Shown here one piece after another: positions 26,257-28,713 of a DNA stretch of 64,000 nucleotides. Source of the DNA: Fructilactobacillus carniphilus (GTDB lineage Bacteria; Bacillota; Bacilli; Lactobacillales; Lactobacillaceae); NCBI RefSeq assembly GCF_024029675.1, contig NZ_CP097121.1, positions 620,001 through 684,000 of the forward strand. Reading direction: 5' to 3'. The notes under the pieces were generated by a model that saw nothing but the letters and a program-made list of their open reading frames with translations, was not told the DNA's origin and made no database searches. The position numbers were made by a program, and so were the translations under genes. Each line of letters starts with the position of its first letter. Within the stretch, counting starts at the first letter, position 1.

Positions 26257-27066
26257 TTAAACGTTCTGGTACGGATGGTCATGGTCAATTAAAATCGTTT
26301 GCACCTTTTTAGCCTGACCAGTTTGTGGGTTAACGTTAACCACACATCCGGACAAAATTCCAGCTCCCGTTGTTTCAACTGCAAAACGATTAGGGCGCGC
26401 CGTTAAGAATTTTTGAATGACGGGTTGATACTCCATTCCAATCACACCTGTAGCGGGACCGGTCATTCCAGCATCCGTCAAAAAAGCAGTCCCATCCGTT
26501 AAAATTTGCGGATCATTCGTCTGCACGTGGGTATGAGTCCCAACTACAGCTGAAACCCGTCCGTCTAAAAACAAGGCCATGGCTTTTTTCTCGCTGGTCG
26601 TTTCGGCATGAAAATCAACAAAGATGACCTTGATTCCTTCTGCATGCAGTTGGGTGACAAGCCGGTCAACAGCTGCAAACGGATCATCAGTTGCTTCCAT
26701 AAACACCCGCCCCTGTAAGTTAATCACGGCAACTTGAGTGCCATTAACGTTTAATGTAGCATAGCCATGCCCAGGGACCTTGGCTCCAGGATAGTTTAAC
26801 GGGCGCAGTAGATTAGGGGTTTGATCAATAAAGGCAAAGATTTCTTGATTATTCCATGCGTGATTACCCAGGGTCACAACGTCCGCCCCGGCTTTCATTA
26901 GGTCTTTAAATAGTTTTTGGGTGATCCCGCGCCCACTTTTGGTCGTGTTTTCCCCGTTTACGATGGTAACTTGTGGTTTAAACTCTTTTTTTAACTCGGG
27001 AAGATACTGTTCCACTAACTGCATTCCCATTTCACCAACCACGTCACCTAAAAATAAAAATTGCAT
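26257..27066 (-). CDS. ymdB: YmdB-type calcineurin-like metallophosphoesterase (TIGR00282)
   Basis: A 269-aa phosphodiesterase, in Bacillus a 2',3'-cAMP phosphodiesterase that affects motility/biofilm choice. Metal ligands are present: FLGDVVGEMG, NGENTTKSGRGI, GNHAWNN, DFHAETTSEK and GTHTHVQTND. One outer-sphere position usually written NHTWD reads NHAWN here. It is directly downstream of rny, the usual arrangement, but with a rny terminator and its own extended -10 (TGG-TAAAAT near 27110) between them. ATG at 27066 with a weak AGGCGGA ribosome site. Confidence 0.93.
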   Translation of the reverse strand: MQFLFLGDVVGEMGMQLVEQYLPELKKEFKPQVTIVNGENTTKSGRGITQKLFKDLMKAGADVVTLGNHAWNNQEIFAFIDQTPNLLRPLNYPGAKVPGHGYATLNVNGTQVAVINLQGRVFMEATDDPFAAVDRLVTQLHAEGIKVIFVDFHAETTSEKKAMALFLDGRVSAVVGTHTHVQTNDPQILTDGTAFLTDAGMTGPATGVIGMEYQPVIQKFLTARPNRFAVETTGAGILSGCVVNVNPQTGQAKKVQTILIDHDHPYQNV

Positions 27067-27153: not shown

Positions 27154-28713
27154 CTACTGAGCATATTCAACGGAACGAACTTCCCGAATCACTTTTACCT
27201 CGACGTGACCCGGATGATTCATTTCATTTTCAATTTTGTCCTTAATCTCCCTAGCTAACACAATTGCTTGTGAATCAGAGATTTTTTCTGGTTTCGCAAT
27301 TACCCGAATTTCACGGCCGGCCTTGACGGCATAACTCTTTTCGACCTCATCAAAACTGTTGGTAATGTTCTCCAGCTTTTCCAACCGGTGCACAAAGCTC
27401 TCTAACGAGTCACTCTTGGCTCCCGGTCGGGTAATCGAAATTCGATTGGCAACATCAACTAGTTCAGAAACTAGGGTGTGGGGTTCATTCAACTCATCTT
27501 CAAGTCGAATGGCATCGATGACTACCGGATCTTCGCCATACTTCTTGGCGATGTCCACTCCGGCTTCGACATAAGATTCGTCGGTCCCACTCGCTGCTGC
27601 CCGTCCAATTTCGTGTAATAATCCAGCGCGCTTTGCTAAAGTTACATCTTCACCTAACTCAGCTGCAAAAACTCCAGCTAATTTAGCAACCTGAATGGAG
27701 CGGGACAAGACGTTTTGTCCGTATGAAATTTTATATTTCAATTGTCCCACTAACTTGACTAATTCATGATTCATGGAATGAATTCCTAAATCAAAGATGA
27801 CGTTTTCGCCCTCTTCTTGAATCTGTTGGTCGAGTTCTTTTTTACTCTTCTCGACCATTTCTTCAATGCGAGCGGGATGAATCCGTCCATCCTTAATCAA
27901 CTTTTCAAGCGCTAACTTGGCAACTTCTCTTCTAATCGGATTAAATCCACTTAGAACCACCGCATTGGGAGTATCATCAATAATTAAATCAACTCCCGTT
28001 ACGGTTTCAAAAGTCCGAATGTTTCGTCCTTCCCGACCGATGATTCTTCCTTTCATATCATCGTTAGGAAGGGCGACAACGGACACCGTGGTTTCTGAAA
28101 CAATATCTGCAGAACTCTGTTGTAGGGCTTCTACAATTAAGTTCTTCGCGTCCTGGGCAGCCGTCTGTTTAGCGGATTCATAATTTTGCTTAATCATCCG
28201 CGCCCGCACGTCTGCTAAATCACGTTTTGTTTCATCCAGCACTAAGTCGCGTGCTTCTGCTTCAGTTAAGGAAGCAACCTTGGTGACCTCGGCCTGCCGT
28301 TTTGCGATAAGTGCATCTGCATCTTGTTGCTTTTTTTCCAGTACCTTTTTCTCACTACTAATGCGTTCCTCTAACCGGTTTAGATTATCATCCCGTTTTT
28401 CAAAAGCCCGATCCTTACGATCTAGAGCTTCCTCCCGTTTCAGTAAATAATCTTCTTGGCGCTGAATATCATCACGCCGTTTTTTTAAGACCTTTTCGAC
28501 CTTATTTCGGTAAGCATTACCGTCTTTTTTGGCTTTAGCAGTAGCATCTTTGAGTTGCTGCTCTGCCTGACGTTGCGCATCGGTTAGAATATCATTAGCA
28601 TTTTGATGAGCGGCAGTCAGCTTCGCTTCTACCGTTCGTTTATGAGTAAATTGCCCGATTAAAAAACCAACAATCATAGCGATAGCGGCGCATCCAACAA
28701 TAGCGAATACCAT
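27154..28713 (-). CDS. rny: RNase Y with a degenerate HD nuclease domain
   Basis: A 519-aa protein of normal RNase Y length and order: membrane anchor (residues 1-21), long charged coiled coil (about 30-200), KH domain (GRIIGREGRN at 222-231), HD domain (about 330-425) and a conserved C-terminal part ending VEYAQ. RNase Y normally starts mRNA decay with a metal-dependent HD site. Here, in an ungapped alignment to the remembered family sequence, the ligand positions read Arg338 for His, His367-Glu368 for the HD pair, Tyr381 for His, Glu405-Asp406 for the His-His pair and Asn423 for Asp. Only His367 is kept. Catalysis is therefore doubtful, while RNA binding and scaffolding look intact. The start ATG at 28713 follows GGGGG. 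Confidence 0.9.
   Translation of the reverse strand: MVFAIVGCAAIAMIVGFLIGQFTHKRTVEAKLTAAHQNANDILTDAQRQAEQQLKDATAKAKKDGNAYRNKVEKVLKKRRDDIQRQEDYLLKREEALDRKDRAFEKRDDNLNRLEERISSEKKVLEKKQQDADALIAKRQAEVTKVASLTEAEARDLVLDETKRDLADVRARMIKQNYESAKQTAAQDAKNLIVEALQQSSADIVSETTVSVVALPNDDMKGRIIGREGRNIRTFETVTGVDLIIDDTPNAVVLSGFNPIRREVAKLALEKLIKDGRIHPARIEEMVEKSKKELDQQIQEEGENVIFDLGIHSMNHELVKLVGQLKYKISYGQNVLSRSIQVAKLAGVFAAELGEDVTLAKRAGLLHEIGRAAASGTDESYVEAGVDIAKKYGEDPVVIDAIRLEDELNEPHTLVSELVDVANRISITRPGAKSDSLESFVHRLEKLENITNSFDEVEKSYAVKAGREIRVIAKPEKISDSQAIVLAREIKDKIENEMNHPGHVEVKVIREVRSVEYAQ

Follow-up and report, generated by a model that had tools for sequence, protein, structure and literature searches.

The window analysed here, a stretch of 64,000 nucleotides from the genome of Fructilactobacillus carniphilus (contig NZ_CP097121.1, positions 620,001 to 684,000), carries at 27154..28713 on its minus strand a gene for ribonuclease Y (RNase Y), rny, whose HD domain keeps only one of six metal-ligand positions. 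We found a second RNase Y elsewhere in the same genome, and refer to the window gene as copy A and to the second gene as copy B. Judged from their sequences, each copy has lost the half of the enzyme that the other retains: A the HD site, and B much of the conserved RNA-binding face of the KH domain. Both copies are under purifying selection, their losses are complementary, the B copies belong to a single clade, and the two genes are widely retained together in the Lactobacillaceae. From this we infer that A is unable to cut RNA, that B is able to, and that the two pair. RNase Y has here probably been split into a non-catalytic KH/scaffold subunit (A) and a catalytic subunit (B), most likely joined in one hetero-oligomer.

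Loss of the HD metal site in copy A

Copy A encodes 519 amino acids and matches TIGR03319, PF12072, PF00013 and PF01966. As a whole protein it scores 643 bits against TIGR03319 (RNase_Y, curated cut-off 454), which makes it an RNase Y by descent, and its domains follow the order of that family: anchor, coil, KH, HD and C-terminal region, the anchor being judged from sequence only. For comparison we took 28 single-copy RNase Y proteins, each standing for one of the single-copy genera in our Lactobacillaceae sample. All 28 have H338, H367, D368, H381, H406 and D423, residues that we take to be metal ligands from knowledge of the HD family; a sequence search of the PDB returned no structure of an RNase Y HD domain. 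Copy A reads R, H, E, Y, D and N at these positions, so that H367 is the sole ligand left in an HD domain (residues 330-430; 27424..27726) whose fold is kept in the AlphaFold model. Read codon by codon on the minus strand, the replacements are R338 for His (27700-27702), E368 for Asp beside the retained H367 (27610-27615), Y381 for His (27571-27573), E405-D406 for His-His (27496-27501) and N423 for Asp (27445-27447). An earlier note on this DNA had listed these same substitutions, with coordinates (27445..27702) whose ends coincide with codons 423 and 338, and all of them are present. It had also counted position 405 among the ligands, and that part does not stand, although the other positions do: 405 is His in 27 of the 28 single-copy proteins and Ser in the remaining one, and among 57 B copies, 10 carry Ser there while having all six other ligands. 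Of the two adjacent positions, 406 is the strict one.

Misalignment was rejected as an explanation. BLAST of copy A against a canonical single-copy RNase Y opens a single gap, which is N-terminal, and none in the HD domain; the alignment is therefore ungapped there, as had been claimed, and the ligands are not preserved at shifted places. The loss is common to all ten Fructilactobacillus genomes sampled, whose A copies retain between zero and two of the six ligands. H338, H381 and H406 are absent from all ten and D368 is Glu in all ten; F. fructivorans also lacks H367 and keeps no ligand at all. The replacements at 406 and 423 vary between genera and within genera. Pseudogene decay was rejected as well, because the ratio of nonsynonymous to synonymous substitution rates (dN/dS) in the A HD domain is 0.018-0.051 across five Fructilactobacillus genome pairs (the synonymous rate, dS, exceeding 1 in one of them). 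Since ten of ten genomes share the loss and dN/dS is low, the change is neither chance nor plain decay; with the fold, the KH domain, the coil and the C-terminus all kept, this bears out the directed loss that the note had proposed. The clustering of losses on ligands is modest: in Fructilactobacillus, five of the seven ligand positions (405 included) are among the 13 of 48 near-invariant HD positions lost (hypergeometric p 0.011), and for 59 A copies judged by majority it is not significant (three of seven among 15 lost, p 0.38). Copy A thus lacks the ligand pattern of a catalytic RNase Y (H, HD, H, H, D), and it probably cannot cut RNA by itself, in agreement with the earlier suggestion of a membrane RNA-binding scaffold.

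Copy B and its KH domain

The KH domain of copy A (residues 208-285; 27859..28092) is intact by identity and by motif. All seven motif positions match, the GXXG loop is GREG (residues 226-229; 28027..28038) and has the flanking basic residues of a type I KH domain, and the KH domains of the ten Fructilactobacillus A copies have a mean identity of 0.831 to the single-copy proteins. Copy B has the reverse pattern. Within the 1.49 Mb genome, which is a single contig (C1), this second full-length RNase Y was matched at C1:1421787-1423328 with 34% identity to A, and its open reading frame of 529 amino acids spans C1:1421778-1423364. At the six strict positions it has H, H, D, H, H and D, a complete set. 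Its KH loop is GKNEQRLR where RNase Y and copy A have GREGRNIR, so that GKNE stands in the place of GREG; three of the seven motif positions match, and Pfam KH_1 (PF00013), which matches copy A, gives no match for copy B up to an E value of 1. The secondary structure of both the KH and the HD domain is present in the AlphaFold models of A and B, and dN/dS of the B KH domain is 0.031-0.134 (four pairs; the fifth was saturated). The genome scan for a second rny that the earlier note had suggested therefore yielded a complementary copy, with HD intact and KH damaged. The note's prediction that mRNA decay is left to other enzymes is not supported, given the same result: with its complete HD site, paralogue B has very probably retained RNase Y-type cleavage.

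Complementary loss across the Lactobacillaceae

RNase Y was matched in 391 of 396 Lactobacillaceae genomes. At least two matches were found in 103 genomes from nine genera, namely Fructilactobacillus, Lentilactobacillus, Secundilactobacillus, Apilactobacillus, Philodulcilactobacillus, Levilactobacillus, Pediococcus, Acetilactobacillus and Nicoliella, where the names Pediococcus, Levilactobacillus and Acetilactobacillus were tentatively assigned from ligand string and identity and Nicoliella (genus g31) is only probable. Exactly two matches occur in 101 of these genomes and three in G350 and G296, some of them being pieces. The remaining genomes have one match (286), one gene in pieces (two, both of genus g12) or none (five, all of genus g28). 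In a class-wide sample of 398 genomes, which held only two other members of the Lactobacillaceae, two matches at E <=1e-60 were found only in F. carniphilus itself; G437 had none and every other genome had one. RNase Y genes in pieces, either assembly errors or broken genes, were seen at G350:C129:76141-77678, G388:C1:54466-56002 and G394:C13:30083-31554.

All two-copy genera except Pediococcus have second copies of the B type. These eight genera comprise 92 genomes, every one with at least two RNase Y matches, from which 90 A and 91 B copies could be read; in the ten Fructilactobacillus genomes both copies are full-length. The KH motif is complete, at seven of seven positions, in 90 of 90 A copies, while the number of HD ligands they keep is none in 1, one in 3, two in 9, three in 15, four in 56, five in 4 and six in 2. 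Conversely, all six HD ligands are present in 91 of 91 B copies, and their KH motif scores range from 2 to 6 of 7; the KH arginine R230 is found in none of the 91, and GXXG is retained in 42. In Pediococcus (11 genomes) the contrast is milder: its second copies (B5) have all six ligands in 11 of 11 cases, and in 11 of 11 they have GNAG or GNSG with R230 replaced. The single-copy genera, represented by one genome each, are canonical on both KH and HD (28 of 28).

We also measured whole domains and near-invariant positions in 59 A and 57 B copies against the 28 single-copy proteins. Mean identity to the single-copy proteins is 0.850 for KH and 0.585 for HD in A, and 0.382 for KH and 0.665 for HD in B; the corresponding values for the single-copy proteins among themselves are 0.842 and 0.765. 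Most A copies have lost 1 of 49 near-invariant positions in KH and 15 of 48 in HD, and most B copies 24 of 49 in KH and 3 of 48 in HD. The Fisher p values for this crossed loss are 7.5e-5 (A) and 2.4e-6 (B), statistics that ignore descent. No crossed loss was seen when the same test was applied to the Pediococcus A copies (KH 1 of 49, HD 3 of 48, p 0.36).

Origin of copy B and order of the losses

In a tree of 46 rows, including 10 B and three B5 copies and six outgroup proteins of the class (and no Mycoplasma sequences), B and the Pediococcus second copies form one clade inside the Lactobacillaceae, with a support of 99.9 in the Shimodaira-Hasegawa-like approximate likelihood ratio test (SH-aLRT). 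The free tree sets B next to genera g3 and g6 (support 87). A tree in which A, A5, B and B5 are held together is not rejected by the approximately unbiased test (p-AU 0.396), and once genus g37 is included, this constrained tree scores slightly above the unconstrained one (p 0.557). On these trees B could be the product of a gene duplication among the two-copy genera or have been acquired from a lineage close to g3 or g6. Gly427 (SGARP-type) is present in all 57 B copies and, among the single-copy genera, only in g3 and g6 (2 of 28), and this may point to where B came from.

The gene neighbours of B, named from reading the sequence at 18 loci, are shared between genera. A metallophosphatase follows B in members of Fructilactobacillus, Lentilactobacillus, Levilactobacillus, Secundilactobacillus and g31 (probably Nicoliella). 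Before B there is a divergent XRE regulator in members of Fructilactobacillus, Lentilactobacillus and g31; members of Lentilactobacillus, Levilactobacillus and Secundilactobacillus have an alpha/beta hydrolase there. The B locus of F. carniphilus has retained the regulator and a methyltransferase, and not the metallophosphatase.

Pediococcus and two Secundilactobacillus genomes have an altered B KH domain together with a complete A HD site; in these genomes the KH domain of B was thus the first to change. Parsimony on an A tree built without the ligand columns (76 rows) counts eight changes each for H406 and D423, whether losses or regains; the A site therefore changed repeatedly.

A probable split of RNase Y and its alternatives

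B. subtilis RNase Y initiates mRNA decay and is quasi-essential (PMC8266666). It has been described as dimeric, the coil making up about 72% of the modelled interface and a C-terminal contact about 10%, with an opening near the KH domain proposed for RNA binding (PMC9775385). Dimerisation through the coil is the normal working state of RNase Y, which makes a hetero-oligomer of A and B the most likely form for the pair to take. As the non-catalytic subunit, A would bring a membrane anchor (presumably the hydrophobic N-terminal segment, residues 1-20; 28654..28713), a coil, an intact KH domain and an HD domain that is folded but lacks the metal site. B would be the catalytic subunit and would contribute an anchor, a coil, the whole HD site and a KH domain with its fold retained and much of the conserved RNA-binding face lost. 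A would then use its KH domain to recruit RNA and partners, leaving cleavage to B, since a dimer with one KH-competent and one HD-competent chain could suffice. The long helical coil of A, the presumed dimerisation region (approximately residues 22-195; 28129..28650), is modelled by AlphaFold as helices 2-147 and 151-201. Over residues 25-195 its net charge is +5 in F. carniphilus and that of B is -21, opposite charges that would favour the pairing of unlike chains. The coil charge of A also exceeds that of B in 9 of 10 Fructilactobacillus genomes, 19 of 20 of Lentilactobacillus, 13 of 15 of Apilactobacillus and 2 of 2 of Acetilactobacillus/Philodulcilactobacillus. We put forward more tentatively, at somewhat less than an even chance, that the A-B enzyme is obligate, with the KH domain of one subunit capturing RNA and the HD domain of the other cutting it across the dimer. 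The series from Pediococcus and Secundilactobacillus to Fructilactobacillus would then record the order of events, B-KH first and A-HD afterwards, several times in parallel.

A number of observations weigh against such a hetero-oligomer. The charge difference is found in only 18 of 27 Levilactobacillus, 8 of 14 Secundilactobacillus, 3 of 11 Pediococcus and 0 of 2 g31 genomes. GXXG is retained in the second copies of Levilactobacillus (27 of 27), Secundilactobacillus (13 of 14), Lentilactobacillus (2 of 21) and Pediococcus (11 of 11), so that in these copies only other changes, such as R230 to Q, suggest a loss of RNA binding. The full HD ligand set is still present in 4 of 11 Pediococcus and 2 of 14 Secundilactobacillus A copies, and G350, a Lentilactobacillus, has a broken copy A beside an intact copy B. 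HD loss in A and KH loss in B are correlated over 101 genomes (rho 0.66; for the nine genus means 0.75, p 0.02), but the correlation does not hold up once descent is accounted for (contrast r 0.05, p 0.39, with sign agreement in 16 of 21 informative contrasts). The contact between A and B, like the activity predicted for either protein, is something that we infer.

In one rival arrangement there are two homodimers with separate jobs: B would act alone as a nuclease, its KH face being adapted to other substrates, and A would form a free-standing scaffold that binds RNA at the membrane and serves RNase J, a helicase and glycolytic partners. Complementary decay by itself needs no contact, and co-decay beyond descent is unsupported; moreover, GXXG is kept in 42 of 91 B copies, and the B KH domain, whose fold is kept in the model and which is under purifying selection, may bind something else. 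We nevertheless regard separate homodimers as unlikely, given the known dimeric state of RNase Y (PMC9775385) and that at least two matches in 92 of 92 genomes, combined with complementary losses, are most simply read as mutual dependence. A might instead be a regulatory pseudoenzyme that restrains B through non-productive heterodimers, activity being set by the A:B ratio. Its retention of the presumed oligomerisation regions and of the HD fold, without the metal site, would fit this role, but the conserved KH face is kept by A and not by B (90 of 90), which argues for a positive part in substrate handling and makes mere restraint improbable. That A still cleaves RNA, with an altered metal site or mechanism that uses Glu, Asp and Asn as ligands, seems very improbable to us: some of the replacements are acidic, as with the Glu at 368 in all ten Fructilactobacillus genomes, but three His ligands are gone from all ten, F. 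fructivorans retains none of the six, and the residues at 406 and 423 are not constant even within genera.

Gene neighbourhood and other decay factors

Immediately downstream of copy A, at 26257..27066 on the minus strand, the list of open reading frames has a ymdB-like gene, and together the two genes occupy what we take to be the usual rny-ymdB place. A cinA-like gene directly precedes rny (window:28714-28842). In Bacilli recA usually lies between cinA and rny; here it is found elsewhere, at C1:1311936-1312892. The named homologues of copy A are those of F. hinvesii (96% identity), F. myrtifloralis (91%) and F. lindneri (83%). Another RNase Y homologue, P0077 (55% identity), has Tyr instead of Asp at 368 and keeps the remaining five ligands.

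The F. carniphilus genome encodes two RNase J proteins (668 and 451 bits), presumably J1 and J2. It has no match to RNase E/G, which was therefore rejected as a replacement nuclease. In genus g28 (G036, G069, G097, G121 and G144), none of five genomes has an RNase Y match with three queries and none has an RNase E/G match, so that this genus is apparently without either main mRNA-decay endonuclease.

We also considered loss of the Y-complex as a cause. The F. carniphilus genome has one PF06133 protein and no match to PSP1/YaaT. Across 46 genomes, PSP1/YaaT had no match in 44, regardless of RNase Y copy number, and PF06133 was without a match in 6 of the 22 two-copy genomes and in 1 of the 24 others; on these counts the explanation was rejected. 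The genomes lacking a PF06133 match are six sampled genomes of Apilactobacillus, g31, Acetilactobacillus and Philodulcilactobacillus, plus G018. The two of the 46 genomes with YaaT/PSP1 (G021 of g13 and G040 of g32) are also those with three PF06133 proteins, so in the Lactobacillaceae the Y-complex may persist or disappear as one unit.

Relation to known systems

Copy A shares with RNase Y as known from B. subtilis Rny (TIGR03319) its family by descent, its domain order and its presumed ancestral gene place. The difference is that B. subtilis has one gene for both RNA binding and cleavage, whereas here there are two, each damaged in the other's half. The HD fold also serves RNA binding without metal catalysis; the likeness is one of fold only, and its Z score is common for helical folds.

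For Mycoplasma genitalium and M. pneumoniae, RNase Y has been proposed to form a heterodimer whose second member is the distant homologue MG_123/MPN_262 (PMC13047044, 2026). The proposal is based on pooled AlphaFold3 results and agreement with published cross-links; the identity between MG_123 and RNase Y is about 5%, and the functional meaning of the heterodimer is, according to the authors, still to be explored (PMC13047044). In that account, as in F. carniphilus with its two family members in one genome, an RNase Y occurs alongside a diverged relative. Unlike the Mycoplasma partners as described there, those reported here are both recognisable full-length paralogues, with complementary losses and surviving intermediates. 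Copy A matches the MPN262 model NF045745 at 7.7e-7 and 28 bits, far under its cut-off of 800 bits. Nothing here shows a shared origin for the two cases. The other close precedent is RNase J1/J2, an RNA-decay enzyme in which an active and a weakly active paralogue are reported to form heteromers (PMC4419217); it differs in having a metallo-beta-lactamase family fold (PMC4652760) and in that J2 retains some activity.

A search of titles and abstract starts in the open-access literature, with subscription papers and preprints outside its scope, found no report of two RNase Y copies or of a catalytically dead RNase Y in the Lactobacillaceae. In public records the A copies are named 'ribonuclease Y', and one record is named 'ribonuclease Y 1 [Levilactobacillus brevis]', which shows that annotators were aware of a second copy. 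What appears to be new is a split RNase Y with clear paralogue partners, complementary losses and surviving intermediates.

The nine genera amount to a natural set of separation mutants, in which one RNase Y is KH-only and the other HD-only, with graded intermediates. If A and B do form an obligate enzyme, the natural pair would be a ready-made separation-of-function system. The label 'ribonuclease Y' on A copies probably names a non-cutting protein as a nuclease, and a deletion of rny at its usual place in a two-copy species would be expected to remove the scaffold and not the catalyst.
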